Source: Rozella allomycis CSF55 (taxonomy: Eukaryota; Rozellomycota). Taken from it: 63,619 nucleotides of DNA. The stretch lies in the NCBI GenBank assembly GCA_000442015.1, contig KE561209.1:655503-719121 (forward strand). The letters are read 5' to 3'. Under the pieces are notes generated by a model that did not search any database, had not been told where the DNA came from, and saw only the letters and a list, made by a program, of their open reading frames with translations. Of this stretch, positions 1,451-63,399 are shown one piece after another. Positions within the stretch are counted from its first letter, which is position 1, and each line of letters starts with the position of its first letter. The position numbers and the translations under genes are program-made.

Positions 1451-2304
1451 ATGAAAGTAAGTACAACGGACAGTACAGCCAGAATTGACCTAAACATTCT
1501 TGGGTGGCTAAGCTCCTAACTATGCAGCAAAGTATTTTCACATATGATATCTTGAATAGATCAGATATACGCCCCTCTACCATTAAAAGTTAAAGCAGAG
1601 CTTTGTCTCCAAGTAATAATTAACAGTTATTAATACCAGAACGCTCCCGAGAATGTTTCGGATCTTTTCCCCACTGTAACAGATTCCTCAATCCAAGAAA
1701 AACTCAAATCTAAACAGATAATACTTGAAAATGCAAAAATTTCAAAAAAGAAGGTGAAGAAACCGAAAAGGATGGGACTGACTGCTGTTGAAAAAAGAAA
1801 GCTGAAAGCTTTTGAAATACCCAAGAATTATCAAAAGTATTATATTTTCCTGTTCTTCAATATAGGTATGAATGTTTTACAAAGTTGAATGAACTTTGGA
1901 ACGGTTATATTACTGAAGTTTTGCAGGATGAAAGGTAATGTTCGAGAATTCTTTAAGAGTAGTGGGGATTCGATGCTTGTCGCTTTAATCAAATCTGATT
2001 TGCATGGCGCGAAAATAAAGGTTCAGAGATCAAAGAATAAATCTGTCATAAACAAATCAGGAATTATTGTGAAAGAAACCGCAAACACATTCCAGATAAT
2101 AACAGAAGATGATAAACTGCAAAGTAAAACAAATTGATTCGGGGAATATAAGGTATCCCGAAAATGAATAGCGTGTTTTTATTAACCACGCCAATTGGCA
2201 AAAATTTTCTGTTATTTGGAAATAGCTTTTGCATTAAATCAGCCGAGAGAATAACCAAAAAGTTTAAACAAAAACCAATGATTGACTTTTTTGACTCGAA
2301 ATAA
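1451..2304 (+). CDS. POP4: RNase P/MRP protein subunit POP4 (Rpp29)
   Basis: Spliced gene. The core 'ALIKSDLHGAKIKVQRSK' followed by 'GIIVKETANTFQIIT' and the C-terminal 'SAERITKKFKQK' are the classic Rpp29/POP4 signature. Upstream, 'KRMGLTAVEKRKLKAFEIP' and 'YECFTKLNELWNGYI' match the conserved N-terminal helix. I infer four introns: a longer first one (about 180 nt, after ATG AAA at 1451), then introns of 29, 25 and 29 nt near 1836, 1936 and 2124. The last exon ends at TAA 2302-2304. The first exon is the weakest part of the model. Known role: a protein subunit of nuclear RNase P and RNase MRP, acting in tRNA 5' maturation and pre-rRNA processing. Confidence 0.85.
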
Positions 2305-2395
2305 AAAGAAATAATAGAAAGCAATAAACTATTCTGATTTAAGTACTTATCAAAAAATAAATATTGGATACACATTTGGATTGATCGTTGCCATA

Positions 2396-2583
2396 ATGAC
2401 ACTGAGTCAAGGGACTAATTGGGATCGTAATATGAGAGAAAAATTTCAGGAGCCCAATGTAAATTTCAACACGACACTCGACTCGGCTGAAAGTCAACGA
2501 GGTCAAGCCCGAGCCCTGGTGCTGAGCCAGAGACCGGGACTCTCTGCCAGCCTTGGGTGATTTAATTTCGGCGTCAGTGTTCA
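2396..2583. other. GC-rich island, possible structured RNA; strand unknown
   Basis: In otherwise AT-rich spacer DNA this stretch is clearly GC-richer. Its ends are nearly complementary (acactga near 2398 and tcagtgt near 2574), and internal hairpins can be drawn, for example CCTGG/CCAG and AGAG/CTCT around 2515-2560. Short reading frames exist on both strands but match nothing I know. I could not match it to U1-U6, SRP, RNase P/MRP or U3 motifs, so the RNA idea is only a suggestion. The rest of 2305-2777 shows nothing recognisable. Confidence 0.25.
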
Positions 2584-4943: not shown

Positions 4944-5975
4944 ATGCTCACTTTCAAGCCACCTGAGGATTTACCTAAGCGGCGATCGGCAAAATCAGCT
5001 GGTAAATTATACTTAAAACTAAAAATAGATTCGACTAATTTTTTGAATGAACAAGTAGCGATCACAAATAAAGAAGAGACGAATAAGAAAGAAAGTTCAA
5101 GGAGGAAAAAGCCAACAAAAGCAAAAGAATCACCTAAAAATAATAATAAAGAGAATACAAACCAGAAAAAGTTGAAAAAAGAACCAAAGAGTGACACCAA
5201 GAATAAAATTTTGACAGAGACTTCAAACAATGGAGAAAAAGATATATCGAACGAAAATGTTAAAGTTGTTAATGATATAAGTACTATCAAGGAAGAAGTA
5301 ATGGAGACAAAAAATAATGAGCCTGAAAAATCAGAAGAGTGGCCCGAATTAGAATCAGTAGAGTCAAATATAGTAAGGAGAATTTTTCTAGATGAAAGGA
5401 TTGGAAAAAGAAATACGAGGATCTATTGTATAAACGAACAACGAAGTTGGAAAAGGCGTTACAAGATCAGATGAAGGCTTTTCAAGAAAGGGATAGGCGT
5501 AAATCATGATTAAAATATTAAAAAAGACCTAAAAAGGTTAGTAGAAGCGCTACAACTTGAGATGAAAAACATGGAAACTACATATACACAGGAAATAGAA
5601 ATCTGGAAAGAAAAGTTTAAATCGGCGTCGAAAATGAATAATGAAATTAATAAATCTATAAGCGTTATGCAACAGAAAATAACAGGCTTAAATGTTTTAA
5701 ATACGAAAGAAGAGCAAGATGAAGAATTCGGAACTGTTTTCCTGTACAAGTGTGTTTTTAATTGCCCACAAGGAAGTAACAGAAGATTTTAGGATAAAAA
5801 TAGAATTAGAGTTTTCTTTGAAGCAATTTCCGTCAGAGAGGTGGATTGATTACATTCCTGAAACAATTGCGCTAGTTGGAGATGCAGGGGTTTTTAAGAA
5901 TTCGATTGGATTTGAAGAATCCGAACTTTTTGCCTTTTTTGCTAGATTGGTACTTTTATCACACCAGCTTGAATA
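4944..5975 (+). CDS. coiled-coil protein with possible Csm1/Pcs1-like C-terminal domain
   Basis: Spliced gene. Exon 1 starts at ATG 4944 (MLTFKPPEDLPKRRS) and runs through a very basic, low-complexity Lys/Asn/Glu region. Inferred introns of 26 nt (near 5371) and 28 nt (near 5501) join it to a coiled coil (DWKKKYEDLLYK, then KRLVEALQLEMKN). A further junction near 5750 is ambiguous (a 19-nt and a 37-nt intron both restore the frame). It leads into a compact end: EDFRIKIELEFSL, YIPETIAL, and a final helix ending ELFAFFARLVLL. The order basic N-terminus, coiled coil and small globular C-terminus resembles the monopolin subunit Csm1/Pcs1, which clamps kinetochores. That identity is tentative. Confidence 0.5.
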
Positions 5976-6001
5976 AAAAATAAAATTCAATGCTTTAAAA
6001 T

Positions 6002-7162: not shown

Positions 7163-7177
7163 TTAGAAATTTCATAA

Positions 7178-9596
7178 ATGCGGATCATCCCGAAACACCG
7201 ATTTTTATCGGGGTTTCTAAAATTCAACAGCACAAATGAAATCATAGAAATGGATTCAATTGCCACTGAATTCTTTGAACTAAATATGGAGCGACGTTTG
7301 CTAGACTGTGCATTTGAATTGTTTCAAACAGAAATGGATTATTATAACGATCTTGTCGTTTTTGATACTGTAAAAAGAACCTATTCAGTTGATTAGATTT
7401 TTAGATCAGCACTAAAAGGAACGATCATAGCGAACATCTTTGATAAGATTCTGCCGATTATTAAATTGCATAAAAAGATACAAGAAGATTTAAATAGGAT
7501 TACAAATGCTAGGGATCTATTTGTAATGTTGCCTTTGATTCTAAATACCTACGCCTCAGAATTCGCATGCTACGAACCATATACCACAAACCAAGTTTAT
7601 GTTAGCAGCGAATTAGAAAAGGCGCGTAAAAATGATCCCTCGCTTGATAAATTGTTGTTGGTACTAATATTTATGAGTAGAAATAGCATTGTGAAGACGA
7701 TCCACGTTGCCGGCGTCTTGCATTGCAAAGTTTTCTAACAAGGCCAGCGACTAGATTAGCAAGATACCCTTTACTGATAGAAGCTATATTAAAACGAATG
7801 CCAGATTATACTGAAAGTGCTATATACCATGCGTATCTTGAATTTGAAAACTCTATTGCTGAAGTGTTGAGAAATATTGACAAGGAAACAGGCTTTCACC
7901 ACAACAAGGCAAGAATAGCGGCTTTAAAAGCGAATATGGAAATAAGAGATCCGAATATTAAAGATGTTGTAAAAATGAATTTATGAAACAAAAGGAAATA
8001 AATCTGGATGATCCCAATCGACGACTTGTCAGAGATGGTCTATTGAAACGAAGGCTAGGAATTGAAATTGTTGAAACTATCGTTGTTTTGCTGGACAATG
8101 TAATATTGTTTGGTAAAAAGTATGAATCTTTAAACGAAACGAAAATGGCGCTTCAAAAGATTGTAATATTTTTGCTTTATGAAGAGGAAGATGGATTTAA
8201 GATTTGTGATTGTTTCTTTAGAAGAGATAAATGAATCATCAAACGGCGCGGTTGTTAAATCATCAAGTGTGAAAAAGAATAGCTTCCATACTTCAATAAA
8301 ATCTGAATTACTGATTCGTCCGGGTAAATTTTTAATCTTATCATATAAAGTGACTAAGTTTCCAATCTTTCTTTATGAAGCAACAAGAAACAAAAAGGAT
8401 ATTCAACTTTTTGCATCAAACATGGCTGAACAAAGACAATGGATCAATGCCATTAAAAAACAAATTGAAGAAAACCAGAAAATTTCTTCAATTTATTCAT
8501 TTCAATTCGCTCAACAGTTAATGGGATTGAAGAACGAAACAATAAATTGTAGTCTTCAGATAACTAACCAGGGTAGAAAATACTTTTTATATGCAACAAA
8601 CTTGAATTTGTATTTCTTTGATTCTAAATTACATCAATTATTCGTACTTTTGCCATTTGAGGTAAAGAAAATGGACTATTATGAAGCCAAAAGTTGGTTG
8701 GCGGTTCTAAATTCTGAAAACAATCTTTTTATTTACCTATTTGATTTATTTTTTGAAGATAAAAATGCATTCTTGGAAAGATCGTCGTTGGTTAGTAAGA
8801 GGGTTAGTTTATTCGGGTTTGGGTGTTGCAACTCCAAATGGATTTTGGTTTGTATTAAAAATAGAAAATTAATGTCGCATATTAAAGTATAAGTTGTTTA
8901 ATTTATTTTACAGGTGTTTGAGCCTGTGTTAAACAATAGCGGTTTCTCTGTAGCTAGAATGTTCAAAAAGGGCAAAGAGAACTTAAAGCTTTACAGAGTA
9001 ATTGATTGTCAAATATACCAAAGAAATTGTATATTGCGTCCGAATCCTTGTCATTATTCTTTTTTAAAACAAAATTGTGCATTGGATGCAAGAAGGGTTT
9101 TGAGGTTGTTGACATTGAGACTATAACAACTCAAGGTAAATTGTATTTATACTACATAGCAGAACTTTTAGATCCAAGAGACCCAAATCTTGTGTTTGCA
9201 TTTCATGAAAATAGAATATTCAAACCATTGGCAATCTTTCGCCTCAATGAAACAGAATTCTTGCCTTGCTTCGACGGTTAACAATATTTTACTTCTAAAC
9301 TTAAGATTATGGATTCTTCGTGAATAAAACTGGAAAAAGAACTCGTGAAACTACAATTATGAAATGGAATGGTATTCCGCATTCGTTTAGTAAATACTAT
9401 AATCTTTTTTGTAACAGAAATGCATCAAAATCATCTATTCTGCTTTTGCGACGGAATAATTGAAATCTACGATATATCAACATGCCAGCTAGTTCAAGTT
9501 ATTCATTCAAATGGCGTGAAATTAGTTGATCGTTGTGATGAGCACCTAATCGTTACAGGCGACGATGGTGAATACTATCTATCAGATCTATACTAA
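7178..9596 (+). CDS. Rho guanine-nucleotide exchange factor, Rom2/Rgf-like (DH-PH-CNH)
   Basis: Spliced from about a dozen exons. The DH domain is recognisable from ERRLLDCAFELFQTEMDY, IANIFDKILPI and the strongly conserved LTRPATRLARYPLLIEAI. A PH-like region follows (FASNMAEQRQWINAIKKQ). The C-terminal CNH domain shows KKGFEVVDIET, LLDPRDPNL, RLNETEFLPC, YGFFVNKTGKRTR and a final CDGIIEIYDIS. This DH-PH-CNH order is typical of fungal Rom2/Rgf exchange factors, which activate Rho1 for wall synthesis and polarity. Introns inferred include 7369-7395 (27 nt) and others of 26, 26, 27, 26, 24, 29 and 28 nt. One near 8160 could be 22 or 28 nt. Stop at 9594-9596. The start could also be a later Met (MDSIATEFF). 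Confidence 0.88.
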
Positions 9597-9996: not shown

Positions 9997-12900
9997 ATGA
10001 CAATAGTTATATCTGCATTCAAAATTGCTGAATTTTCGGAAATGAATGATTCCAGTGTTTCACAATTTTTCAATCAGAACCAGTCCTCGCAAACAATTCC
10101 CAGTAATGCCTTAATTTAAAAGTTAAAGGCGACCTAGCAATCCAATTCTGGATCTCCTTTCAAATCCCGCCGGTGATAGCGACTCACACCAGGTAAAAGT
10201 ATGGTAAACCAATGGCAGAACATTATGCTGTTCAGGTGTTCGAATGAACTACAATGAGTTTATAATTGGCTGTCGAATATGCCAATTCTGGTTAAACACT
10301 CGGCAGCCATTACCGAAATATTTGACAGACGATATGAAGGCTAGTTTATTGGGCAAGGTGGATTGGAGAATAAGGGATGGGGACAGGAAAAGGTATGTGG
10401 AGATGTTCCAATCGCTTGGTATTGATACAGATGGATACTTGTCAGGTAAATGGATGCTGGTGGATGGAGAGGTGAAAATGCGCGTGTGTATTTTATGCAG
10501 AGCAAGTTGCCTAATAATAAATTGCATCAGATATGGTAAAAGAGATTGGTTGAGGTTTTGAAGGAATTTGGTTGATAAGGGGAAGAGGGGGAAACTGAAT
10601 TGTAATGAGTTTTGTGTTGCGATGGAGTTGATTACACGGGCGATTGGTGGGGTACCTGTGCCTGGTGTGCTCCCTGGAGAGTTGGTGGTTGAATTGGAGA
10701 GACCTTGTTATTTGAAGACGCAGAATGAGAAGATTAAAGAGATTGAGAATTTAATTAAATCGATGCCTGTGACTAATAAAAATTTTGCAAGTGAAAAGGG
10801 AGTGTTTGAAAATAATTTGCGGCAGACTGGTAGAAATTCTATTCAGCAAAACATGAATGTTGAAATAGTTGACAAGATTGGAGGTTCAATGAATAGGTCT
10901 ATTTCAAATGTAAAGAGAGATACTGTTAAATCAAATGTATTTGCAAACAAGAATGAAGATTTGAAAATAATGATTCCACTGGACTTGAATTCATCTGCTG
11001 TGAAAACACCGACGATACAAGTTTCATTTTTAAAGTCGCCAGAGAAGAGGCTATCGAGTGCTAAAACAAATTCTAGCATGACTCGATCTATTTCACATTT
11101 GGAGTTCTCCAAAGACGAGATATTTGAGGATCCATTTGTTGAAGATCCATTTCAAGATGAGAGTGAGAGATTTGAGGAATTTTCTATAATAAAATCATTT
11201 GAGAGTGAAGAAATTAGTTTGAAAGTTGGGGATGTGATTAATGCGGATATGAAGCATCCGGAAGTGAGTTTGCTTTGGTGGTTTGGCTATAAAAAGAATT
11301 CAGAGCAAGTTGGATGGTTTCCATCTATTTGTGTTCAAAGTAAATTTGGTGTTTAATTAGTAAAGGAATGTTTAAAGCTAAAGCGAATTTTAGTAAAAAG
11401 AATGATGATGAATTGGATTTGAAAATTGGCGATATTTTGGTTCTATTGAGGGAGGAAGATGATGGATGGGTTTGTGTTGAAAATGAGAGATTGGAAAGTG
11501 GCTACGTGCCATTAAACTTTTTGAGTGAAATAAAAAATGTTGAAAGTAATTTTAATTTATGAAGATTTAAAGGAATGAATTTTAATTCTAGACCACGATC
11601 GTTGAGTTTTAATCAGATTTATTCTTATAATATTGAACCTGAAAAAGTTTCTGGATGGAGTGATTTTGTTGGAAGTGAAATTTCTGAATCTGTTTCTAAA
11701 GAAGAAAGAAAAAGACAAGAAGCAATTTTTGAATTAATTGCAACTGAAAGAAAATATGTCGCTGATTTACAATTAATAATTCAAGTTAAAATTAATTTCT
11801 TTTATTTAAAAGGTTTTTTATTCTCCTTTATTGAAAATATTAAATGTCACAACAGTTGAAATGTTGTTTTCTAATATTGAAGACATTTTACTTGTTAATT
11901 GTCAATTGTTGAGTGATCTTGATGATTTACAAAAGAATGAATTTCCAATTGTTAATAATTTAGGCAAAATTATGCTGAGACATGTAATGATTGACCCTGG
12001 TTATTGTAGATTCCAGAATGTCACGTTTATTTAACTTATTGTGGGAATCAATTATCAGCATCAAAATTATTAAACAATTTAACAAAGAATGATGAAAATT
12101 TTAATTTGTTTTTAAAGAAATGTTTAACTGACCCTAGATGTAGAAATTTACAATTATCAAGTTTCTTATTACAACCAATGCAAAGAGTTACAAGATATCC
12201 ACTTTTATTAAAACAAGTATTTGATAAATTAAGTTTAAATAAAGATTATTCATTATACTCAAAAAGATTGTTTAGATCATAAAGAATTACTTGAAGCTTT
12301 ATTCAAGAGTGAAGAATTGTTAAAAAGAGTTAATGAAGCAGCAAGAGAGAAAGAGAATTTAGAGAAAATTAAAGAACTTTCATTAAAATTAGAAACAAAT
12401 GATTTACAAGAAGTAAAATTATATAATTTATAAATAAAGCCATTAGATTTACTTTCAATGACAAAATACGTTGGGAAAAGAAGAATCATTAAAGAAGGTT
12501 ACATTTTTAAAGCGAAAAGCAACAGAAAACTATACGCAATTCTATTTAATGATTTATTAATTTTTACTGAGCAAATTTCAGTAAATTTAAATAATTCAAA
12601 ATCAAATAAATTATCTATTTATAGAAATGTAAAAAATAGATTAGATCTTTGTTTAAGCCACTTCCACTAGATGAAATTGTTGTTAGAGAAGTTCAAGATC
12701 CAAAAATGTTTTCTTCTTACAATCCTTGTTGGTTTCAAATTGTTCACATTAAAGACATTCTAACAATTAAATCTCCAGATCTTCAAGAAAAGAGAATGTG
12801 GTTCAACGAGTAATCTATTTTCATTCAATATAAAGAATTGAAGAAGCAATAAAACAAATCAGATTAGCCGAAAAACATTCAATGTCAAAAAGCAGTTTAA

Positions 12901-13327
12901 ATTTCAAATGCATTGGTACAGTTCAAGTTTGCATTAGAGAAGCAAAAGATTTACTCTTCACTGCCAGTAAAACATTTCATTTTGCTATTTTGATAAATGT
13001 CATCCATTTTGTCTCGTCCAACTTGGAAACCAACAATTAAAGTCTAAAGTTGTTCAAAATTCAAATTATCCAAAATGGAACCAGAGTTTAATGTTTTCTG
13101 TGGAAACTTTGGATTCAAACATCCGTTTCATTGTTTATCATTATGATCGTTATGGTCAGAACAGTATGATTAAATGTTACATTTTGTTAGCGTATCTCGG
13201 TCAATGCGAAATACAATTAGATTTCTTGGAATACTATGGCGAAAAGGAAACTGAAATCATCGAGTTGTCATTAAAAGATGTGCCGAAAGGATCTCTACTG
13301 ATTCAACTGCAGTATCACTCTACATGA
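9997..13327 (+). CDS. intersectin-like endocytic scaffold and Cdc42-type RhoGEF (EH-EH-SH3-SH3-DH-PH-C2)
   Basis: Spliced gene with about 13 short introns. The first EH domain ends MNYNEFIIGCRI. The second shows GYLSG, SKLPNNKLHQIW and NLVDKGKRGKLNCNEF, ending PVPGVLP. A low-complexity linker with DPF-like repeats (FVEDPF) follows. Two SH3 domains come next (LKVGDVINAD to GWFPSICV, and MFKAKANFSKKNDDELDLKIGD to GYVPLNFL), then a DH domain (AIFELIATERKYVADLQLII, LLQPMQRVTRYPLLLK), a PH domain (KRRIIKEGYIFKAK) and a C-terminal C2 domain (VQVCIREAKDLL, NYPKWNQSLMFSV). This is the long intersectin order with two instead of five SH3 domains. Two one-base frame breaks occur at homopolymers near 12261 and 12990. 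The role in clathrin endocytosis and Cdc42 activation is inferred from the family. Confidence 0.85.
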
Positions 13328-13828: not shown

Positions 13829-16303
13829 ATGGCGCAAGTCAGCAGAGCGAAAAATATTCTCGCGAAATACTACAGTGTTAATGATGGTGAGAAGGGTAAG
13901 AGCGGATTTATTGTGGGATAGTTGAGTCGCCGAAACGCGCAGAGGTTGAAATCGAGGATCCGAATCAGCCGCTCGGTATGGTGTGCTTTGGAGAGTTAAT
14001 TAGGTATGATTATATGTTGGGGTGTACAGATCATGCAGAGTTTAATGCTGATACGTATATTTCGTCAATGCTGGCGAATAAGGGGTTTGAAGAATTGACT
14101 ATTGAATTGGACGATCTGGACCAGCAGATCAAGCGATTCGAAGTTGATACAAAGACTCTTGTTTATGATAATTATACAAGATTCATTAAGGCTACTGATA
14201 CCATCAGTGACATGAAAAACGATGTTGAGCAAATGGAAAAATCAATGACTAGTTTGCTCACCCAAATGAATGAAATGTCACAGGATTCTAGTGCCATTCA
14301 CGAGAGATTTTCTGAAAGGCGTGTGAGAATAAATCAGTTATGTGAGGCCCAGAATATGGTGAAAAAGGTAATTCACTGGAGTAGAGGTTACAGATTCAAT
14401 ATATTTTGGAATTGCCGACATACTTGCAGAGAAATATATCGAAAAAGTCTAGCTGGAAAGCCCTAGTGCATAATTATTCGTGGATGATGGATAGTCTGCA
14501 AAATAAGGATCATATTGACAGTTTTGCAAAGATTAAACGGGAAGCAACTGAAATTATTGCGCCGATAAAGGATGAGGCGTATAAAAAGGTTACCCTGAAG
14601 AGTGCGGGAAAAGTAATAAATGTTAAATGGGTTTTTAGATCAAAATGGAAGATTTAATTGAAAGTTGCTCGATTCTGGTAGGAATTAAAGAGAACCCGCT
14701 GGACATCTCCCAATCTTTGATTAGCAGGTATGCATATCTTTATTGCAATTTTTAGCGCGGATACAATCTTAAAGAAGATTTCTTCATCGCTGCCTTTAAA
14801 GGGAACTTACAATGAGCAACTAGAGAATGTGAATTCTCAATATATTAAACCAATGACTCCTTTTTTGATTCATTTCCATTTCATTTTCATGTCAGAATTT
14901 GAAGTAAAAAGAAACAAAAAGAAGAATCCCAACACTGAAATTCAAGATTTACTACCCGGTCTACATAAAGTTCTATTATCCACGCAAGTAAATAACATAA
15001 ATTCGTATGATAGGAATATGATACTTTAAAGGCTAATCTTCTAGCTCAGGCAAATGAATGGCTAAACAATTTCTGCGAGTTGTTGAAAAATATTTTAAAA
15101 GAGGAAGTAATTTCTCTTTAAATTAATGTTTAAGAAAGATTGGCCTGTTTTGATTTCGTTTTTTCATGATGTGAATGAAATCGCAATGGTTTCTGACCAA
15201 AATCACTGTGTCGACATATTTTCTACAACAAAATCATTCATCCTATCATTCTTTATTAATAACATCCAAAAGAAATTCGTAAATCTCTCGTCGAGTTTAA
15301 TGGAATCCTTTGATAAAAATGACGAAATTGCTCCGTTAACAGATAACATTATGAATAGTTACACAATGATTATTAATGACATACAGCCAGTTTTAAGATC
15401 AGAATTCAGTTACATGAAATCATACTCTCATGATATTTTACTCACGTGTCAGACTCTCTTAAAACAATCTTTAACGGATTTCGTTAACTATCTAGGGAAT
15501 TTGAGTGTTTTGGATACAAAGCTTTTATTGAAACAAGTGTCGGTTCTATTTGAGCTTAATATTTCTATCCTTGATAAAATATTTGTTCATTTCTCTGAAA
15601 GTTTGTTCATTGGAAAAGGTGGTTTACGAAATTGGATGTCCCAAGTCGCCCCCATAAAATTAGAGGCAATACAATTAGCTCAAGTAAAATATTCGCATAT
15701 TTATGACAGAAATGTTTGGAACTCAGTGTTCGTCTCACAGAGACTTCCACTTTGGATATTCTGGAAACCTTTTTGGATAATCAACCCTGGCTTCAATATG
15801 AAATCCCGACTGGACACTCATCCGATATAGTGCGCTGTATTAATATTGTTCAAAACTTTAATTCCTTTTGTAACACATATTTGCCCAAGGCTCCGTCTAA
15901 AAAGAACTCTTCGTCTCAAAAAAGCGGATCAGATTCACGCAAAAGCAAGAATAACAGAAAGTCAACATTTGATGATCAACTATCAGCAAATATAGATAAG
16001 ATATTTTCTGAAAGAATAGTCATATTTGCACCAATTACAATAGACAACACATGTCCTGTCATGCAAGTGTGTAGGTCATTCCTGAAGGCATGGACTGAGT
16101 ATGTACGAATGAAAACACTTAATGCAAATGGATTTAATCAAATTCAAATTGATGCAGAGCAGTTTAGAATCGCTCTGTGGAAGATGGATAACGAAAATGA
16201 GACTTTAATGACTTTATTAGATGATGTCATTTCCAATGCATACAAAAGATCGATAAATCCAAGACCACTTTCACCAAATAGTCTCTCTAATTTTTCTAAA
16301 TAA
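13829..16303 (+). CDS. VPS51: VPS51, GARP/EARP tethering complex subunit
   Basis: Starts MAQVSRAKNILAKYY. After splicing, 'FNADTYISSMLANKGFEEL', 'TLVYDNYTRFIKATDTI' and 'MKNDVEQMEKSM' are the conserved N-terminal coil of VPS51 (Vps51/Vps67 family). 'KKIQYILELPTYLQRNI' and the later helical rods continue the fold to the stop at 16303. Inferred introns are 26 nt (after GEK), 54 nt (13976-14029, unusually long here), then 26, 26, 28, 26, 28 and 26 nt. GARP tethers endosome-derived vesicles at the trans-Golgi. The protein ends with a Ser/Lys-rich linker (SKKNSSSQKSGSDSRKS) and a helix bundle. Confidence 0.88.
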
Positions 16304-18769: not shown

Positions 18770-18797
18770 TTCAATCCAAAATATCGTAAACAAGGAT

Positions 18798-38676: not shown

Positions 38677-38728
38677 AATGCTATTCCCATCTTATATTGA
38701 GATTTTTAAAGATTATTACTTTTAGAGA

Positions 38729-45630: not shown

Positions 45631-45741
45631 ATTTTAAACTGAAATTAAACGTTATTTAACCATTTTTGTTTAAATTTTTAGTCTTTATTATTCCATGCCC
45701 ACTTTATGTCTATGGAACTTGGTGGAAGTGGCTCAGTCAAA

Positions 45742-49083: not shown

Positions 49084-50450
49084 TTACATTGTAAAAAGCA
49101 TCCCCATGTCCATTGGATGGCCTGAAGTTAGTTGAGGTACTTGCCTGTATCTTTGCGAAAGAATGGAACGTGTGCTAGCGAGCAATTGGCTATATGTTTG
49201 TCTAGGATTATTGTTCAAGCTCTGAAGAAATGCCGATGACATTGCACCGACCGCTATGTNGAAGAAATGCTGACGACATTGCACCGACCGCTATTTTAGA
49301 ATAGTCATAAACATCAGCGGAAGTTTGATTATCGGCGCAACCGCTAAACATTATTACATCTGACCACGTTTGACGCTGGTTATTTATTTGGCTGTACGAA
49401 GATGAAGAACCAGTGAGTTTATCTAATTTTTTCTTTATCTTTTTCATTTTTTTGACTTTAAAATCGCTAAAATATTAATTACTTGCTTTCTTTGGTTTTC
49501 CAACAAGCAACGAGAGACCAACTCCCAATGCATTAGCGGCTATACCCACAGCGCCTGTTGCCGAATAGAAATCATAAGACATTACAAGATTTCCATAATT
49601 ATCGTAAACATATGGAAGATCCAGAGCTGTCCCTGAATGGCACGAATCAAAAATTGCTGTTAATCGCACACCAACAGGTAGGTTTTTGACCATAATTGAA
49701 TGCATTTCCTTTTTACTAAGAATATTAATATTACATCATCAATAATTTCTCCAGCAATGGAATAATCAACGGGCAAAATGGTTTCGTCATACCCGTCGAC
49801 CTCATCTCCGTCATAATCCTTTCTTTGAGATCCATGTCCTGAAAAATGAAAAAAACATGAGTCTCCAGGCCTTAAACCTGCAACTAACCAAGACATAGCA
49901 TAAATGATATTGGCTTTTGTGGGCCAGTATCTCGTATCCGTGATTCTAGGGTCATCCATCAGAATTACCATGCTTGAAGGATCGTCTCTATATCCGAATC
50001 TATTCATTATAAATTGTTTCATGTTAAGAACATCGTTGTGGCATCCTTTTGTGCATTTGATAATAATATAATACCCCTTAATGGTGATTTTGAATTGGCG
50101 TAGTTAATTCCAATTAAAAGAGCTTTTTTATAACCTGTACATGTAGACAAGGGGTAATTTGCAGTTTGTTGGGTGCCATTAGCATTATATATCACTGTCT
50201 GCATTGTAACACTGCCTGGCGGGAAATGATCTAATCGATAGCCATTCATCGTAGATTGATTAAACGAGTTATTCTGATATGTATTTTGGTATTGAGGACT
50301 GGAAAAATGAGTTTGCGATTGTTTGTAATCAGGTGGTATCCCTTCTTGGTAAGAGGAAACTTGGGGGTAGAAAGTATGTTCCATTTGTGGAGCGTTAGGA
50401 TTAAAATTATTTGAATGATTTTGATTATTCATTGAATTCCCGGGAAACAT
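49084..50450 (-). CDS. type I metacaspase
   Basis: Begins [19 protein letters not shown], an Asn/Gln/Pro-rich prodomain of about 100 residues as in type I metacaspases. The caspase-like fold follows: '[20 protein letters not shown]', '[21 protein letters not shown]' with the catalytic His, and '[19 protein letters not shown]' with the catalytic Cys. '[19 protein letters not shown]' and 'GAMSSAFL' complete the p10-like part. A single N at 49260 is flanked by near-identical copies, so part of the end is duplicated by assembly. Type I metacaspases are calcium-dependent Arg/Lys proteases involved in stress and clearance of aggregates. Confidence 0.88.
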
Positions 50451-50892: not shown

Positions 50893-52172
50893 TTATGAGA
50901 ATGAATAATATGAAGGAGATATTGATAATCGTTCATTATCTCCAGGAATAGCGTGTAGATTTAAAGGAATAAGGCACTCGTCAAAAGTTGAAAGTGAGCT
51001 GTTATCAAATTGTTCCACTGAATACGAACCATTATTTTGACTGTGACTTGTCCAATCCTGTGAGCCATAATATAGTACAACCTTCAAATACCATGACAAA
51101 TTCACTTTTTTATATTAAGTATGTCATTTACAATCTATGATTTTCATGGATGGAATACAAGTTGAGGGAATACAAAGTTCTGTTGTGCACTTTTTGATAA
51201 ACCAACAATTTCTCTCCATAGATGAAATGGTTCGTAGCTGTTCGTGATTGGTTTCTTCTTTCAGAGTTTCTAATGTTTCATGAACCATTAGCGAGATCGT
51301 AATCTACAACAAGCACCATGATAAGTTACCTTCTTCACGATGTAAATTTGAATAAATGTAAAAGATAATATCAATGACTCTCCAATCACACATGCTTTTG
51401 GATTAAAAGTTATACGAGCAATACATTCGTCATTTATATTTTTCAATTCATAATTTCCTGTCATTTAAAAACTCTTATATTACTTTCTGTGTTCAGCGAC
51501 ATAAACTCGAGGTCGAAATCAGAATCTAAGGTTTGAGTGTAATATTTCATTCGACATATATCTATTTCTTTGTCGAAGTTTTGGATTTTCCTTAACGTTA
51601 CATTTCCGTTTACTTTTCCTAACCTCTCATGTAAATGCAACAAGTCAAAGTTTTGGTCTTCTGAAGATAGAGATTTTTTATTGTTACCGGAATTATTTAT
51701 CAATCGAAAAGGAACGGTAAATTTTCTTCTAGTCATATGCCCAGTAAGAATAATGATTTGAAGGTAGTAATCAATTCTGAAAAACTTTCCCACAAAAGAT
51801 GACGGAAGAAATTCTGGTAAAGGAAATTTCAACACGACTATTTTATTAAACGTAATGAAAGGTACCTGATATTGAAGATGTATCATCCCATTCCACAGAA
51901 GTAAAAAGTAGTGTCGATGTAGTTAACAGCAATGGAATTGCTTCTGGATATTTTAATACTGTAAAATTACCTTTAGAGGACAAGTATGGGCTAAATGGAT
52001 ATGAAAATTCATTTCGAACAGTATTCAATGCATTTAATTCCCCTATGAGCAATGCTTCCCCGGAAATCAAATTCATGCGTCCATTAGAATTTATAAATAT
52101 CGTGCATTCGTAATTATCGCCACAAAAATATACTGAATTTTTGGCGACAAGGCATGAAACTGAAAATGTCAT
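50893..52172 (-). CDS. RGP1: Rgp1-like subunit of the Ric1-Rgp1 GEF for Ypt6/Rab6
   Basis: I start at ATG 52172 (MTFSVSCLVAKNSVYFCGDN). After tiny introns the arrestin-like beta-sandwich signals appear: 'FPLPEFLPSSFVGKFFRIDYYLQI' and 'RRKFTVPFRLIN', the 'LPPSFRGK...LRVPFRV' motif of Rgp1. A later exon 'DECIARITFNPKACVIGESL' corresponds to the second arrestin-like domain, and the end 'ECLIPLNLHAIPGDNE' fits the conserved close (DLPIxVLP). Rgp1 binds Ric1 to activate Ypt6 at the Golgi. Sequence similarity is weak, so the identity is moderate; the gene itself is clear from consistent frames and introns. VPS51 in this window acts in the same Golgi retrieval route. Confidence 0.6.
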
Positions 52173-52316: not shown

Positions 52317-52806
52317 ATGTCTTCTGACTGGGATTCTGTCACAATTATTCGCAAGAAACTACCAAACTCTAAAGTTAACTCTTCAGATTCTGCTTTAAAT
52401 GCGGCAAGACGTGCTGGACAAGGTATTTCAGTTGAAAAGAAATGTAACTAAATAGTTTTCTTGTAATAAAGTCAACGCTGGTTCTAACAAAAACGCTAAA
52501 GTCGACACTAACGCTGCAAAACTAGATCAAGCTGATGATGTCGTTGAAGGTATGGTATAATGTACATGTTAAAAAGTGAAAAACGTTGGTCTAGCCGTTT
52601 CAAAAGCTATACAACAAGCAAGAATGGAAAAAAAGTGGACTCAAAAAGATTTGGCAGTCAAAGTTAATGAGAAACAAAATGTTATCAATGAATACGAGAG
52701 TGGAAAAGCTATACCAAACCAACAAGTTTTAAGCAAATTAGAACGTGTTTTGGGAGTCAAACTTCGTGGCTCTAATATTGGAGACAAATTGGGTCCAAAG
52801 AAATAA
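52317..52806 (+). CDS. MBF1: multiprotein bridging factor 1 (MBF1)
   Basis: Three exons with introns of 28 nt (near 52447) and 27 nt (near 52552). It begins [20 protein letters not shown]. '[14 protein letters not shown]' and '[12 protein letters not shown]' belong to the MBF1 N-terminal domain. The helix-turn-helix (cro/C1) domain is '[38 protein letters not shown]', very close to MBF1 throughout eukaryotes. MBF1 links sequence-specific activators to TBP and also guards against ribosomal frameshifting. It ends KLGPKK. Confidence 0.93.
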
Positions 52807-52931: not shown

Positions 52932-53964
52932 ATGGAAAAATACGAAAAGATTTGCAAGATTGGTGAGGGTACATATGCAGTAGTATACAAAGGCAGGATC
53001 AAAAAAACTAACGAAACTATTGCTATAAAGAAGATTAAGGTTTCTAATTTCACAATAGGAATAGATCACTCGGCACTTCGAGAAATTAAATTTTTACAAG
53101 AGCTGAAGCATCCAAACATCATAAAGTTATTTGATGTGTTTTCACATAAAAAGAACTTAAATATGGTGCTAGAATTTTTAGACGCGGATTTGGAACACCT
53201 CATAAAGGATACAAATGTGGTCTTTATGCCTGCTGACATCAAAAGCTGGATGTGGATGTTATTTAATGGTCTTTCCTATTGCCATATGCATTTTGTTGTA
53301 CATAGAGATTTGAAACCCAATAACTTGCTTCTCTCTCAGAACGGCGTTTTGAAAATAGCGGATTTTGGTTTGGCTCGTGAATATGGGTCTCCTAATGATA
53401 GAATGACCCATGTAGCTGTAACAAGGTACATTATAATATCTTTTAATATCTTAGATGGTATCGGCCGCCAGAATTACTTTTTGGAGCTCGATTATATTCA
53501 TCTGCTGTAGATTTATGGTCTTGTGGATGTATTTTTGCAGAGCTTATGCTAAGAACCCCTTTTATTGCTGGTGAAAACGATATAGATCAAATTAAAAAAA
53601 TATTTATGGCGCTCGGAACACCTACTGAACAAGATTGGCCAGGTATGAAGTCGCTGCCCAATTTCATGATGTTTGATGAAACCTTTTTGCGAAGGCCTCT
53701 TTCAAATCTTTTTAGTGCAGCTGGGAAGGATTCTATTGATTTACTGGAGCAAATGATGCGGTATGATCCAGCAAAGCGTATTAGTTCAGTGCAGGTGATG
53801 AATTTCAGTTTTCTATATTAAAGGCTTTGAAACATCCTTATTTTGAAAATGAGCCTCTTCCAACACATCCAGAACTCCTGCCAAAATTAGTGAGGAAAAA
53901 TCAGTTGGAAAACACTGCAATGGATGTAGACGAAGTTGGAATGAAACCAATAAAACTATTTTAA
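52932..53964 (+). CDS. CDK7: cyclin-dependent kinase 7 (Kin28/Mcs6-like)
   Basis: Starts MEKYEKICKIGEGTYAVVYK, with the glycine loop GEGTYAVV and the ATP lysine in 'IAIKKIKV'. 'GIDHSALREIKFLQEL' is the CDK7 equivalent of the PSTAIRE helix (animals and yeast: TALREIK). 'HRDLKPNNLLL' and '[32 protein letters not shown]' follow, the latter joined by a 29-nt intron (near 53427) with the T-loop Thr present. 'VDLWSCGCIFAELMLRTPFIAG' and 'LPTHPELLPK' near the end are CDK7-typical. As part of TFIIH it phosphorylates the Pol II tail and activates cell-cycle CDKs. It ends 8 bp before the convergent Dia2-like gene. Confidence 0.9.
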
Positions 53965-53972
53965 CTTTTTTA

Positions 53973-55595
53973 TTAAACATAATTGAATGTTAATGCTTCT
54001 ATTTTTTGAGCAAACTGAATGGCTGACAAGCTAATGTTGTCGCAATACTTGGCCTCTAGAATTTTAAAGGTATCAAAATTAACTTGCTTTAAAAATTTAA
54101 CAAGGCCTATGCCCCGTAAAGTCTTATTCCGGTTTATTTTCAGACACCTTAATCTAGGTAATTTAGCGAGAAGTTCCAACAATGAATCTGTAAGCCATTC
54201 GCATTCAGAAAACTCAAGAGTTTCTAATGATTGCTGCTTCTCAAGAATAAAATTAGAAAATTCTTCTATTGAAACTTTTAAATCTGTGCAGAAGATTAAA
54301 GAAAGATTTTTTAGTGGAAGCAATGAAAGAGTTGAAAATGCATCATTAAACGAAATGCTCAAAGATTCAAGAAACAAAGAGTGTATATTTAGTGTAGAAA
54401 TGTGCAATAAATCGTTCATTTGAAGATTTGAGATAGAATTGCTTGAATCTACATGTAGTTCAACTAAACTCGGGCAGCACAAAGGCAAACTAGACAAGCA
54501 ATCAGAATTGTTTGAAAGCTCTAACATTGTTAAATGTGAAAATATATTGACTCTAAAAATTTCGACATTAATGCCTTTGATACAAAGCTTCTCCAAGTTA
54601 CAATTTTTGATAAGGTTCAATACAATTGAGGGGCTGATGCGCATATTGGAAATATCAAAATCTTTTAAAGACTTGAATGAAAAATTGATGTCAGATTTAG
54701 AATTGGCAAAACTCCCATTTCGACATGAGAATTTCTCAAGGTGTTCAAGTTTGCACAGATTCCTTAGAGCCGGTGCATTAATCTGACCTTTTGGCAACGA
54801 AAGTTTTTTGAGCTTCCTTAAATAAATACAAAGAATATTTGAATTTTCGAAATCAAGGTTGGCATCTAGCAATTCCAATGATGTTAGATTCTTTAGTGGG
54901 CCAACGTTTAAACATTTTTGCAATTCTCTAGATGAAAGATGAACGTTGATTTTTAATTCCGAGATAAAATGTCTAGCCTTCTCCATCACCTTAGGCCAAT
55001 CATGCTTCTTTGACTTAACGATAACCTGCTGGTAAATGAAACCCTCGCGACTGCAAAAGTCATTCCAAGACTTATTCATCATCGCTAACCACTGAAAGCT
55101 ATGTTGAGGTAAATATTTTAATATTTCATCAATGACTTCTTTAGGAAAATACTGTAATATATCATAGGTATTTTTCTTGATTTGGTTAGTCACTAATTTC
55201 TCATTGAGTACATCTAAAAGTTTTAACAAATGATATTTATCATTTTCATTTAAAAGTTCGGCTTTTAGGCCTAATGTAGCATATTTAACCGCCTCATTAT
55301 ATTTCTTGGATTTAATATTCAATCTAGTCAGTCTTATGTATCCCTACTAGTAAAATACATTTATCCTAGTTACTCTAGCTATACTTGAATTATACTTTAT
55401 TGTGTTCAAAGCATCTGCTTTCGCTGCCTCGTAATCCTTTAAACGCTCGAAAACCTCGGCTCTACAATCATACAAAATATGATTCTTTTTCAGCTGAATA
55501 GCTTTTGTAAATTCTTGTAACGCATTTTCGTAATCTTGAAGCTGGAAAAATTTCTTGCCTGACTCGTAATACTCCTTCCAATGTTCTCCATTCAT
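53973..55595 (-). CDS. DIA2: TPR-F-box-LRR protein, Dia2/Pof3-like
   Basis: From ATG 55595 (MNGEHWKEYYESGKKFFQLQ) the first exon holds TPR motifs ('YENALQEFTKAIQLKKNHI', 'RLKDYEAAKADALNTI'). After a 30-nt intron the second exon continues the TPR and has an F-box ('LQYFPKEVIDEILKYLPQHS' then 'LAMMNKSWNDFC'). The last 330 residues are leucine-rich repeats ('NLTSLELLDANLDF', 'LPRLRCLKINRNKTL'). TPR plus F-box plus LRR is the unusual order of yeast Dia2 and fission yeast Pof3, SCF ubiquitin-ligase receptors that unload the CMG helicase and protect telomeres and replication forks. Confidence 0.8.
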
Positions 55596-60086: not shown

Positions 60087-60772
60087 CTTACTGCCAGGGT
60101 AACACAAATCAAGAAAATCTTAAGATCTTACCTGATTTCCGAAATTAAACTGAAAAATAACTATTTCTATTTTTAATGATAAATCGGGGGTCGTGGAGCT
60201 TATTAAAAATTAACAACTATTTTCTAACCATTATCAGTTATTTGTGATTAATTTGAGTTGCNCTTATACGTTGTCGTCTGAGCTTTAAGCGATTCGGATG
60301 TAGATAAAATAGTTAATTCAATGGGTAAAGTATCAAACCTTCGCTTTGTTAGTTGTTAATCTCGCCTTATCATCAGGAAAATAGTCTATAAAAAACACTT
60401 TTTCAATGTGAAACAGTGAAAGCGAGTGAAGCGCAAACCCTCGACTGGCGTGCGAACCCGGAGCTATTGAAACATATGGGGACAACCCTAGAAACAAACT
60501 TTTTTAGTTTAGCGCAAGTATGGGGTATCGGTTTTATCTATAACGAACACAATCCATTTTTAATGCGAGAGAAGCGAGTACAATAAACTTGAACCTTCAT
60601 GATGCCAAATATTATTGAGCGGCATATTTTTTGTGAATGCTTGCTTAGTCCAAACCTACTCTCTTCGGATATGGGTATAATGGAATGCGTAAATAGAAAA
60701 AATTAATAACGAGCACTGCGAGACTTGTATAGGTGCATATGGTCATATAATCTTACAACTGGTCAGAGATCT
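60087..60772. other. spacer with one N gap, nothing definite
   Basis: About 690 bp between the GTPase fragment and the next gene, with a single N at 60262. No tRNA, repeat or conserved reading frame is recognised. GC content is mixed, with a somewhat GC-richer patch at 60421-60480 that gives no recognisable product. Confidence 0.35.
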
Positions 60773-63399
60773 ATGTACTTGAAAGGAAAGCCACAAAAAA
60801 TTTTAAGACGGATGTTACTAGGGTCCTTTTTAGTTTTTTGTGTAAACTGTGCCTTATTTGGTCTTGCATTTGAGATATCCTCTATTTACGAGCTTAGAAA
60901 AAGTAATATCAATCTGATTTCTTCAAAGTTATTGACGATGAAATATCCTTAAAGTTGAACACTATTATCAAGCACCCTTCGGTATCGGACAATCAAAAAG
61001 ACATCAAAATGACCAAAAGCGCCAAGTTTTTGAGAAAGCTTTATTTAGATGAGGTTGAAATAGCAATAGTCCCGGCCGTTGTTTTAGGGGATGATGTTGT
61101 CTTCGAAGAGATTTTAAAAACGAATCGCTATTTAATATCAAAAAAGTATTACAGGAGCATGACACTTCTTTCAATTTCATGTCTATTTGGGCAACATGAG
61201 ATATCAAAGAAAATAGTCAAAAAAACAGACGTGAATTATCTTTTTGAAAAAGATGAAAGTGGAAATTCATCTTTTCATTATTGTAAAGACCAGATGACTT
61301 TTGAATTTCTTGAAGAAAAGGCGGATTTAGCATTACGTAAATTGAAATTAGCGAGGAGTTCATTAGTCAGAACAAAGCGTAATGATAGTATGTATTACAC
61401 AACTAGTGCAAGATCATACAGTTATTTCTAGTTGGACATGTTTAGATAATGGGATGATGAAACTGAAGAACATTGTTTCTAAACAAGAGGTAGAAGCGCC
61501 ATGTTTTGAGCGTTATAAGCATAAGCCTGTGGAATATATTAAATCTTTTTGGCCTGGCAGGGATAATGAAAAAGAATGCCCATTTGAAATTTTGAACAAC
61601 TCAGTTCACCGTGAAAGAATATTTCGGCTTGATAGCTCTGGGGTAGTAAAGTATTTGTCTCGAGTATACAAAATATGTCGCGAAGATAACTTCAAAAGAA
61701 ATTCAGTAGACGATACTTTTGATATATATGGTGATATGCAAGACGATGAAATAAAGTATGACGTTTTGTACGATAAATATGATGGAGACGAAGGAACCAT
61801 TCAAAAAATTCAAACATTATGGAGTAAAAGGGGATGTGTTTCACGAATTGAAACAATTTTTAAAAATGACACAAGACTTGCCAAAAGGTTTACAGAGACT
61901 GTGCAGCGCCTTAACAGTGTGGACTTGCAGATTTTCTTTTCAACAATTATTCCAGTTAATGAACTTGAGATGAAAATAAATATTTATGAAGGGCACAATA
62001 TACTAAAAAGTGACTATGGATATCTTTGCGGCGATGTTTATTTGTCACACCGGGATTNAATTCCAGTTGATGAACTTGAGATGAAAATAAATGTTTATGA
62101 AGGGCATAATATACTAAGAAGTGACTATGGATATCTTTGCGGCGATGTTTATTTGTCACACCGGGATTGTAGTGTTTCAGAATGGACTTTTGATAGATCA
62201 AAATGCTTGATAAATGGGAAAGTGGATATGTATAGAAAAATAATTGTTGTTCCCCTTAATGGAGGAAAGGCCTGTCCTGAATTATACGATTGAAGGGATT
62301 GTTTTGAGGTAACTGAAAATGATTTGAAAGATAATCAATCTGAAAATTTCAAAATGTTGGATGAAATTTGGAAATCAAATAAATGTAATATGTCTTTTGC
62401 TTTCATCACGTCAAAAATATATTTCAGTGTTAAAGAAGAAGAACAGGTGAGAAGTAAAGAATTTTGGATTGGGCCTTCATCTAAAATTGCGTCTAGAATT
62501 CATTTCCTTAGGATAAATTTAAGTCCTGCTTGCAGTTCAGTAGGTAATCATCAAGTTCGCTTTAATAGTTAAGCTTATCAGGCCAGCAAGACTGAGAAAA
62601 TTTCAACATTCCAAGACGATTGTTGTAAAACAGGAAATGAAGTTGTTACAACTAAACTTTTTATTCCTTTTGAAGATACACCAATAGTTACAACCTTTGA
62701 AAGGGCATGTGATCAAAGTTATTACACGTTGATGTCTTCAGAAAATCAAGACTCTTGCTCATCTCAGTTGTGGATTGCTACTGGATGCACAAAACCATTT
62801 CCTGGTAAAGAAGTTATTTTCAAAGCAGCCTATTATACCAAAGACACTTTGGATTTTTTTAAAACTGAATTTGTTAGGCTAGAATACTCAGAAAAATTCT
62901 TTCAACAATCCTCTATTTGTTTGGAGGCTACAGGTATCTATTATTTGTGACTTGAAAATAAGAGTCTGACCATGAATTTCGTGACTCATTAGACGTTTCC
63001 GATTTTTTCAATATCCCTTTCTCGTCACCAACATTGGTTAACACAATGTTTGGTGAATGGATTGAGACGTTTCCTAATGTGAATCTTAACATCAAACCAC
63101 TGGACTTTTCTTTTTCTTCAAAAGTGAATAGCATATCTAATCGTGCAAACGTACTTCCCCATAACGGTGTACCAAATCATGAAAACTTAATTCGTGATAA
63201 CGAAGGTACAGAATTTATTACAGGGAATGACGATTTTGTATTGAGTAACAATGGGTTCGATTATATCTACGAGGCTGATGACGAGTTGTTATATGATGAA
63301 GAAGAAGATAATTTTGCTATGGAAAAGAATACTGAAATCCTATTTATGCCAAACAATCATGTTGCTAACGAATTCGATGTTCCAGAAGGGTTTGGGTAG
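60773..63399 (+). CDS. lineage-specific secreted protein: ankyrin-like N-terminus and cysteine-containing ectodomain
   Basis: Start is ATG 60773, or more likely 60812 (MLLGSFLVFCVNCALFGLAF), which gives a signal peptide. Local-style introns restore one long frame: 26 nt near 60904, 28 nt near 61379, 27 nt near 62562 and 29 nt near 62933. Residues after the signal show ankyrin-like helices ('SMTLLSISCLFGQHEISKKIV', 'DESGNSSFHYC'). The next 500 residues are a Cys-containing region ('YGYLCGDVYLSHRD', 'DDCCKTGNEVV', 'LWIATGCTKPFPGK'). The end is an acidic, disordered tail (DDELLYDEEEDNF). A TGA at 62291-62293 breaks the otherwise good frame, and an N at 62058 is flanked by a duplicated segment. 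It could be a functional gene with a sequencing error or a recent pseudogene. No family known. Confidence 0.6.
61953..62168. repeat. near-identical duplication across an N joint
   Basis: The segment 61953-62057 is repeated, with a few changes, at 62062-62168 directly after the single N at 62058. It carries the same coding segment (ELEMKINIYEGHNIL). The duplication length and the N show an unresolved assembly overlap rather than a real protein repeat. Confidence 0.8.

Follow-up and report, generated by a model that had tools for sequence, protein, structure and literature searches.

The small introns investigated in this study have their closest described counterparts in Paramecium, whose introns of about 25 nucleotides (nt) combine GT-AG ends and a narrow range of lengths with a 5' splice site that largely reads GT(A), as stated in excerpts of the respective publications (PMC5014332, PMC5663052, PMC12862383, PMC9612004, PMC2483917). 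In the exons of this organism, GTA/TAG segments are counter-selected at intron lengths (PMC9612004). How the spliceosome locates a branch point that no motif marks is still debated for Paramecium, for dicyemids and for the nucleomorph of B. natans, and the relevant excerpt describes no branch signature in the latter two or in P. tetraurelia (PMC2483917). The introns of mikrocytids and chlorarachniophyte nucleomorphs measure 16-17 and 18-21 nt, respectively (PMC10245619). Here we have analysed the introns of Rozella allomycis CSF55 in a window of 63,619 nt, the whole stretch of DNA under study, which covers bases 655503-719121 of a 719121-base contig in an assembly of 9.97 megabases and 213 contigs. 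The organism is an early-diverging fungal parasite of the water mould Allomyces. Among the matches listed in our literature search, which had subscription papers including the original genome paper outside its scope, none was found to mention, in its title or at the start of its abstract, the intron lengths of Rozella, ultrashort introns placed back to back or a branch A that is anchored at the 5' end. The one deposited Rozella protein compared, a Sec1-like protein, already implies introns of such size, and it is the A at position +23, anchored to the 5' end across introns of 26-29 nt, that is new in this analysis.

Intron lengths and a conserved A at position +23

Introns were predicted with a semi-Markov gene finder, termed the blind model, whose codon statistics derive from long reading frames and which allows a free GT...AG intron. 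It started from a flat length prior of 15-60 nt, contained no term for position +23 and was retrained in six rounds on the window plus 200 kilobases (kb) of the same contig (263.6 kb, including 48.9 kb of N), and the frozen model was then run on a held-out set of 92 kb from other contigs. Training and held-out sets together comprise about 307 kb with 572 introns, 556 of which measure 26-32 nt and are designated core introns, the remaining 16 being distributed over 24-25 nt (4), 33 nt (2) and 36-87 nt (10). A second gene finder that uses the A at +23, the A23-aware model, placed 600 introns in 164 genes.

The lengths obtained with the blind model display a sharp lower edge at 26 nt, with a single intron of 24 nt and three of 25 nt compared to 137, 141, 128 and 81 introns of 26, 27, 28 and 29 nt. 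This edge is already found in round 0, where the flat prior yielded one intron of 25 nt and 74 of 26 nt in the 263.6 kb. In the final round, the same sequence contained 423 introns, with 99, 103, 97, 67, 25, 13 and 7 in the classes from 26 to 32 nt. The held-out contigs, with 133 of their 149 introns at 26-30 nt, show a similar distribution. Since 562 of the 572 introns are GT-AG introns of 24-33 nt, the population falls within the narrow range of 20-35 nt considered as Paramecium-type. A sequence-only reading of the window had described ultrashort spliceosomal introns with GT-AG ends and a tight clustering at 26-29 nt, which our analysis upholds: all eight segments that it named start with GT and end with AG, and 108 of 115 window introns in the blind model and 114 of 121 in the A23-aware model belong to these four classes. 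The existence of short introns with tightly clustered lengths is thus certain. The proposed extension of the range down to 19 nt is not supported, with 4 of 572 introns shorter than 26 nt. At the other end, a few longer single introns may exist, as eight non-tandem calls measure at least 40 nt. In the present calls, intron density amounts to 2.77 per kb of coding sequence; an excerpt of a published source gives 2.53 per kb for Rozella (PMC8476143). Homology support for intron removal in a gene of the window comes from transaldolase, which after excision of seven introns aligns to PDB entry 2e1d over 315 residues with a single one-residue gap.

In all classes from 26 to 29 nt, a single interior base downstream of the 5' GTAA is strongly conserved, namely the A at +23. 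Against a background A frequency of 0.34, it is found in 119/137, 98/141, 88/128, 58/81, 20/37 and 12/23 introns of 26, 27, 28, 29, 30 and 31 nt in the combined sets, and on the held-out contigs in 87, 74, 71, 64 and 58% of introns of 26-30 nt and in 30% of the 10 introns of 31 nt. Within the window, 79 of 114 core introns carry the A at +23, compared to 29-42 of 114 for each of the positions +18 to +22. When 410 introns of 27-31 nt were used to compare anchoring at either end by likelihood, the gain for an A at +23 counted from the 5' end was 95.3 nats. As a fact of the sequence, this 5'-anchored A is certain. It is likely the branch point, and its constant position across lengths suggests that the spliceosome measures a distance rather than reading a sequence motif. 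If +23 is not an A, as in 139 introns of 27-32 nt, the frequency of A rises at +24 (54%) and +25 (50%, n=96 introns of sufficient length) but hardly at +22 (37%), which indicates a minimum distance and not an exact ruler. An A located anywhere from +23 up to 3 nt ahead of the intron end is found in a fraction of 0.87-1.00 of the introns of each class, compared to 0.32-0.96 in control windows of equal width, a contrast that fades above 29 nt.

A second regularity concerns the 3' splice site. Of the 556 core introns, 549 end at the first AG found from +26 onwards, whereas AGs ending at +15 to +25, with 204 occurrences in 172 introns, are all skipped. The 24-nt segment 9136-9159 of the sequence-only reading is therefore better described as 9136-9162 (27 nt), which equally keeps the frame, because an AG ending at +24 is found in 36 of 556 introns and skipped every time, and 24-nt calls account for only one in 572. 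Its six standard examples all fit both the A at +23 and the AG rule, although three of them were called by neither model (Table 1).

The same combination of ends and length is avoided in exons, as would be expected if segments with such a geometry undergo splicing. In 212 kb of exons from the A23-aware calls with duplicates removed, where expectations were taken from neighbouring lengths with the same remainder modulo 3, sense GTAA...AG segments of 26-32 nt were observed 96 times compared to 172.0 expected (ratio 0.56, p 1.8e-10). For lengths not divisible by three alone, there were 70 compared to 116.7 expected, a dip that cannot result from exons miscalled as introns, because this would require a frameshift. 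The antisense control is at expectation (256 and 258.9, ratio 0.99), and ten other sense pairs (GTG, GTT, GTC, GCAA, GAAA or TTAA before AG, and GTAA before AC, AA, GG or TG) show ratios of 0.84-1.17. For GTA...AG in general the exonic ratio is 0.79, and the dip recurs in the exons of the blind model, where these segments number 47-63 per length at 26-32 nt compared to 52-96 at the shorter lengths of 15-25 nt and 46-83 at the longer ones of 33-44 nt.

With respect to the machinery, the genome encodes a U2 RNA (139.2 bits) with a canonical GUAGUA branch-pairing part, a U6 RNA (88.5 bits) with a canonical ACAGAGA and a U1 candidate whose 69 bits lie slightly under the cut-off of 69.5, together with domains of SF1, UPF1, UPF2, UPF3, Slu7 and Prp18. 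Judged from these sequences, the introns belong to the U2-type spliceosomal class, and their unusual geometry appears, on the basis of these few families, to be accommodated without an obviously stripped spliceosome. Compared with Rozella, the introns of mikrocytids and nucleomorphs are similarly tiny, narrow in their size range and found in intracellular lineages; in contrast, they are shorter, and in mikrocytids their sequences are conserved and the spliceosome is highly reduced, according to the excerpt available (PMC10245619).

The proposed mechanism and its alternatives

Our preferred interpretation, to which we assign a probability of about 0.8, is that U2-type introns would have shrunk in Rozella to about the shortest length that its spliceosome can use. 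Not marked by a clear motif, the branch A would be the earliest suitable A at +23 or shortly thereafter, since branch and 5' splice site would have to be at least 22 nt apart. The 3' splice site would follow at the nearest AG from +26 onwards, in most cases 3-6 nt downstream of the branch A. Such a minimum distance would explain the floor at 26 nt. The A at +23 would thereby act as nucleophile, and the limit on the distance would be of a steric nature. If this A is the branch point, Rozella would offer a natural measure of the shortest workable distance between 5' splice site and branch, with 22 nt in natural introns at the limit compared to a donor-to-branchpoint constraint of about 46 nt in human test constructs, as given in an excerpt of that study (PMC11291888). 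The signature appears once introns are aligned at their 5' end and split by length, which provides a simple test for other genomes with tiny introns; in the source excerpt it is unreported for Paramecium, dicyemids and the nucleomorph, for which this alignment was not run here (PMC2483917).

Several observations weigh against this interpretation. All introns described here are predictions from sequence. An A at +23 is absent in 157 of 556 core introns, in the 31-nt class it is less common than an A at +24 (12/23 compared to 15/23), and in the 30-nt class an A at +8 (21/37) is as common as that at +23 (20/37). In the flanks of A23, the resemblance to a U2-pairing context is weak (T at -5 and -2, A at -1, z about 3) and weaker still among the A23 introns alone; it was a post hoc observation, in which the T at -5 and -2 would fit pairing with U2. 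Earlier AGs past +26 are avoided to a modest degree (7 of 538 sites compared to 18.2 expected, p 0.003), and a further loss of A23 is not clearly visible among exonic GTAA...AG segments of 26-32 nt (30% of 89, with 34% of 340 for segments of 33-47 nt). At one of five introns, the deposited Sec1-like protein points to a different boundary, and it differs further in the 5' part. Finally, Slu7 and Prp18 are dispensable when the branch is very close to the 3' splice site. A loss of either protein, as predicted from the short distance between branch and 3' end, was not found, since both are present.

The weak U2-pairing context and the 157 introns without A23 could also be accounted for if the A at +23 were real but read by another factor, with the branch residing elsewhere at a variable position. 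We regard this as unlikely, since strong conservation in the intron interior, past the 5' GTAA, is confined to +23, the conserved base is an A, and the 3' splice site follows it at a distance of at least 3 nt in introns of 26-32 nt.

Almost equally unlikely as the principal cause, yet compatible with the preferred interpretation, is a scenario similar to Paramecium in which nonsense-mediated decay mainly shapes lengths and in-frame stops. Translation-coupled decay of this kind had been proposed in the sequence-only reading, which also suggested a search for Upf1-3, and UPF1, UPF2 and UPF3 are indeed all encoded. Its statement that most lengths are not divisible by three holds numerically, although it reflects merely the two thirds expected by chance, since lengths divisible by three (3n) are not depleted (178 of 556 core introns) and 27 nt is the commonest intron length, with 141 cases between 137 of 26 nt and 128 of 28 nt. 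A stop in the retained frame is present in 152 of the 178 3n introns. Permutation of the phases within each intron length gives a mean of 136.1 (standard deviation 4.5), with none of 2000 permutations as high as the observed count, whereas introns of other lengths, with 234 of 378, conform to their permuted mean of 230.8. The A23-aware calls agree, with stops in 152 of 183 3n introns and a null of 135.0. The earlier notion that nearly all 3n introns carry a stop is thus correct in direction, but the excess is modest and in part open to ascertainment. The splice sites themselves supply stops, with GTAA providing TAA in phase 2 and a 3' TAG forming a codon in phase-0 3n introns, so that about three quarters of 3n introns bear a stop anyway, and a stop-free 3n intron is invisible to a reading based on frame. 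The two stop-free exceptions named earlier also understate their number, as the A23-aware calls contain seven among 33 3n introns in the window.

The remaining excess of about 16 stops could reflect selection or stop-free introns that were missed by frame-based calling. In the exons of the blind model, 27-nt GTA...AG segments number 52. The mean is 55 for lengths of 26, 28, 29, 31 and 32 nt, while 21, 24, 33, 36 and 39 nt reach about 69. In the absence of a surplus at 27 nt, few stop-free introns of this length, perhaps a handful, seem to be hidden. This favours selection over missed introns, short of proof. In four genes whose frame is backed by homology (transaldolase, PDH E1-beta and CCT3 by PDB, and an EFL1-like fragment by eye), nine of nine 3n introns carry a stop. 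A role of nonsense-mediated decay is plausible but unproven, and it would explain neither the floor at 26 nt nor the A at +23. Paramecium and Rozella share tiny GT-AG introns of narrow length, a 5' splice site that mostly reads GT(A), counter-selection in exons and extra in-frame stops in 3n introns, but differ in that 3n lengths are depleted in Paramecium and not in Rozella, as far as the excerpts describe it (PMC5014332, PMC5663052, PMC12862383, PMC9612004, PMC2483917).

If the branch A kept a constant distance to the 3' splice site, the way it does in Stentor coeruleus, A23 would merely mirror uniform intron length. The narrow lengths leave both ends nearly fixed, and positions -4 to -7, counted from the 3' end, show some enrichment in A (46-49%), but the A shifts from -4 to -7 as introns grow from 26 to 29 nt, and the best of seven 3'-anchored positions gains at most 18.7 nats on the same 410 introns compared to the 95.3 of the 5' anchor, which renders this explanation very improbable and led us to reject it. 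The introns of Stentor, at 15-16 nt, resemble those of Rozella in a nearly fixed branch A without strong consensus, in their AT-richness and in canonical U2 and U6 motifs, whereas the A of Stentor moves from position 10 to 11 with length to keep its 3' distance and that of Rozella keeps its distance to the 5' end (PMC9505925, in excerpt). Least credible of all is an artefact of a self-trained gene finder that had locked onto a length and a pattern, which the purely predicted nature of the introns would permit, since the edge at 26 nt emerged from a flat prior in round 0, +23 was absent from the terms of the first model, the pattern repeats on held-out contigs, homology backs intron removal in transaldolase, PDH E1-beta and CCT3, and the exon dip at non-3n lengths would require a frameshift.

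Introns arranged back to back

Among 463 internal intervals in the A23-aware calls, 11 have a length of zero and a single one measures 1-12 nt. After removal of a gene duplicate, these correspond to eight distinct tandem sets, including two triples (26+27+27 and 31+31+27). The alignment of PDH E1-beta to human 1ni4 (E 5.1e-149) continues without interruption over the triple, as does that of CCT3 to yeast 5gw4 (E 5.9e-162) over a 30+30 pair, and a 29+27 pair is found in the UPF2 gene. Under strict rules for a unit (26-32 nt, GTA start), six of the eight sets split into adjacent units, the two failures being due to a 36-nt unit and a unit starting with GTG, whereas the share that can be split in this way is 0.22% for random intron-like sequences with lengths of 53-62 nt and zero for the eight other calls of at least 40 nt. 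A nested reading of the stwintron type was absent in all eight sets under the unit rules used. In a gene with a USP domain, the two 31-nt units resemble each other with an alignment score of 23, compared to a maximum of 17 in 1500 random pairs, and one was thus probably duplicated from the other; the units of the remaining tandem pairs are not clearly related. On the scale of the whole genome, abutting GTAA...AG pairs show no excess (129+149=278) over a control with the pattern read backwards (164+125=289), which is possibly poorly matched to coding sequence.

Tandem introns would presumably be excised one unit at a time. We further consider, tentatively and with less than even confidence, that the spliceosome might choose the branch point by a count of about 22 nt from the 5' splice site and not by sequence, and that it might handle introns of 26 to about 32 nt, the lower limit being strict and the upper one practical, so that most longer inserts would be removed one by one as chains of unit introns, in some arrays perhaps reaching five units. 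Recursive splicing at zero-length exons (PMC5126111, PMC2773006, PMC10156609) and fungal stwintrons (PMC8469720, PMC9024468) similarly involve removal in several reactions, and 3' and 5' splice sites can abut, as they do in the adjacent introns of Rozella separated by zero-length exons. The excerpts of these sources describe recursive splicing mainly in large introns and stwintrons as nested, whereas in Rozella complete introns of mostly 26-31 nt are placed end to end, sometimes in threes. Such arrangements could reveal intron multiplication by duplication and the handling of longer inserts by a size-limited spliceosome.

In the window, the 54-nt segment 13976-14029, the second of the two exceptions mentioned above, is in frame and free of stops as had been stated, but it splits exactly into units of 28 and 26 nt. 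This candidate pair is unproven because it is located just before the Pfam domain of a VPS51-like protein and was called by neither model; no PDB relative was found for the segment.

Overlapping matches to GTAA...AGGTAA...AG with steps of 28-31 nt, in several runs per contig, were observed at C87:4142-7164, C65:2926-6412 and C27:3152-10267 among the matches listed. With steps of about 29 nt and up to five units among these matches, the runs on C87 and C65 may be minisatellites.

Genes of the window and further observations

The predicted genes and introns of the window are compiled in Table 1.

Table 1. Genes and introns of the window. Genes are calls of the A23-aware gene finder, supplemented by the evidence named in the last column; intron lengths (nt) are in brackets, and sf marks introns free of in-frame stops.
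Feature	Position	Strand	Introns	Evidence and remarks
Gene	1522..2304	+	1532-1559(28) 1613-1639(27) 1837-1865(29) 1935-1962(28) 2124-2152(29)	
Gene	4944..5976	+	5002-5028(27, sf) 5373-5398(26) 5499-5526(28) 5776-5803(28)	
Gene	7250..9596	+	7370-7396(27) 7661-7686(26) 7969-7994(26) 8163-8190(28) 8324-8350(27, sf) 8887-8913(27) 8998-9023(26) 9136-9162(27, sf) 9277-9305(29) 9390-9417(28)	9136-9162: earlier 24-nt segment extended to next AG
Gene	10334..13040	+	10446-10471(26) 10536-10563(28) 11340-11365(26) 11546-11572(27) 11785-11812(28) 11984-12009(26) 12217-12244(28) 12413-12439(27) 12629-12657(29) 12810-12835(26)	
VPS51-like gene	13829..16303	+	13896-13921(26) 14368-14393(26) 14613-14638(26) 14728-14755(28) 14988-15013(26) 15107-15134(28) 15684-15709(26)	Pfam VPS51_Exo84_N from residue 59
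Candidate pair	13976-14029	+	13976-14003(28) 14004-14029(26)	Each GTA...AG with A at +23; in frame, stop-free
Intron of sequence-only reading	16459-16486	+	16459-16486(28)	A at +23; called by neither model
Sec1-like gene, partial at its 5' end	16703..18130	-	17848-17873(26) 17476-17504(29) 17361-17386(26) 17067-17092(26) 16886-16913(28)	
Gene	18594..19928	+	19257-19282(26) 19430-19457(28) 19693-19719(27)	
Gene	20235..21419	+	20727-20755(29) 21072-21099(28)	
Tpt1/KptA RNA 2'-phosphotransferase gene	21466..22142	+	21571-21597(27) 21899-21925(27) 21983-22008(26)	Pfam PTS_2-RNA 190.5 bits
Intron of sequence-only reading	22301-22326	+	22301-22326(26)	A at +23; called by neither model
Intron of sequence-only reading	22367-22392	+	22367-22392(26)	A at +23; called by neither model
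Ribosomal protein S5-family gene	23292..24018	+	23657-23684(28)	Pfam Ribosomal_S5 and S5_C
Ras gene	25325..25935	-	25847-25878(32) 25553-25579(27)	Pfam Ras 193.9 bits
Gene	26059..27821	-	27578-27603(26) 27471-27498(28) 27110-27136(27, sf) 26830-26857(28) 26656-26683(28) 26545-26572(28) 26302-26330(29)	
Gene	27849..28609	+	28024-28049(26) 28218-28246(29) 28336-28363(28)	
Gene	28665..30346	+	28809-28835(27) 28935-28964(30) 29284-29312(29) 29498-29524(27, sf) 29717-29743(27) 29924-29949(26) 30073-30098(26) 30231-30259(29)	
Transaldolase gene	30841..32002	-	31905-31932(28) 31713-31740(28) 31614-31644(31) 31394-31420(27) 31253-31281(29) 31095-31122(28) 30999-31026(28)	Removal backed by homology
Gene	32038..33148	+	33052-33079(28)	
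Gene	35679..36740	+	35781-35809(29) 36054-36084(31) 36318-36344(27)	
Gene	36759..38156	-	38012-38038(27) 37849-37877(29) 37741-37768(28) 37513-37540(28) 37161-37186(26)	
Gene	38242..40481	-	40107-40133(27) 39974-40000(27) 39838-39863(26) 39745-39771(27) 39452-39477(26) 38855-38880(26) 38691-38719(29)	
Gene	41314..45630	+	43475-43504(30) 44978-45005(28) 45109-45135(27) 45250-45278(29) 45469-45495(27)	
Gene	45706..46638	+	45814-45839(26) 45895-45920(26) 46023-46048(26)	
Gene	47701..48426	+	47756-47783(28) 47924-47949(26)	
Gene	49208..50450	-	50046-50074(29) 49709-49734(26) 49456-49482(27)	
Gene	50893..52172	-	51944-51970(27, sf) 51838-51865(28) 51661-51687(27, sf) 51458-51483(26) 51304-51329(26) 51105-51131(27)	
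MBF1 gene	52317..52806	+	52444-52471(28) 52550-52576(27)	Pfam MBF1
Protein kinase gene	52932..53964	+	53426-53454(29) 53795-53823(29)	Pfam Pkinase 250.6 bits
Gene	53973..55595	-	55344-55373(30)	
Gene	60773..62293	+	60903-60928(26) 61379-61406(28)	
Gene	62354..63399	+	62544-62573(30) 62934-62962(29)	

The predicted Sec1-like protein, whose model in this analysis is truncated in the 5' part of the gene, matches the deposited protein of R. allomycis CSF55 at 99% over 95% of its length. Four of its introns agree with the deposited protein, as deduced from the identity of the proteins. At the first intron, the deposited protein lacks four residues that are kept by the 26-nt reading. The other six aligned relatives all contain residues in these columns, with a pattern Y-x-Y or Y-x-F in four of them (P0061, P0065, P0068 and P0086, but not P0057 and P0138). 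Use of the rule would thus improve gene models by retaining, as in relatives, residues that are missing from the deposited protein.

Other features of the window include the protein kinase at 52932..53964, which we take to be CDK-like, and a T-box transcription factor gene without introns on the minus strand (24033-25241), with kinship to T-box proteins of chytrids and Mortierella. On the same strand, a long reading frame at 33213-34295 has a start resembling a signal peptide and a degenerate HGKDHHGRD repeat, due to which the region is open in several frames. Also on the minus strand, the Gag-like frames at 55858-59174, which contain repeated segments and a stretch resembling a zinc knuckle, possibly represent a long terminal repeat element, as judged by eye, and 59646-60119 encodes a small, secreted-looking GTPase with a P-loop that by eye is AIG1-like. 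A tRNA-Val (AAC) is located on the plus strand at 46786-46861. Isolated single N bases, some within genes, number 60 in the window and the sampled loci L009-L028 combined, 19 of them in the window. On another contig, two WD-repeat genes (C191:546997-548981 and 552697-554681, locus L018), presumably of the dynein-intermediate-chain type, encode identical predicted proteins with the same introns at a distance of 5.7 kb and are either a recent duplication or an assembly duplicate.

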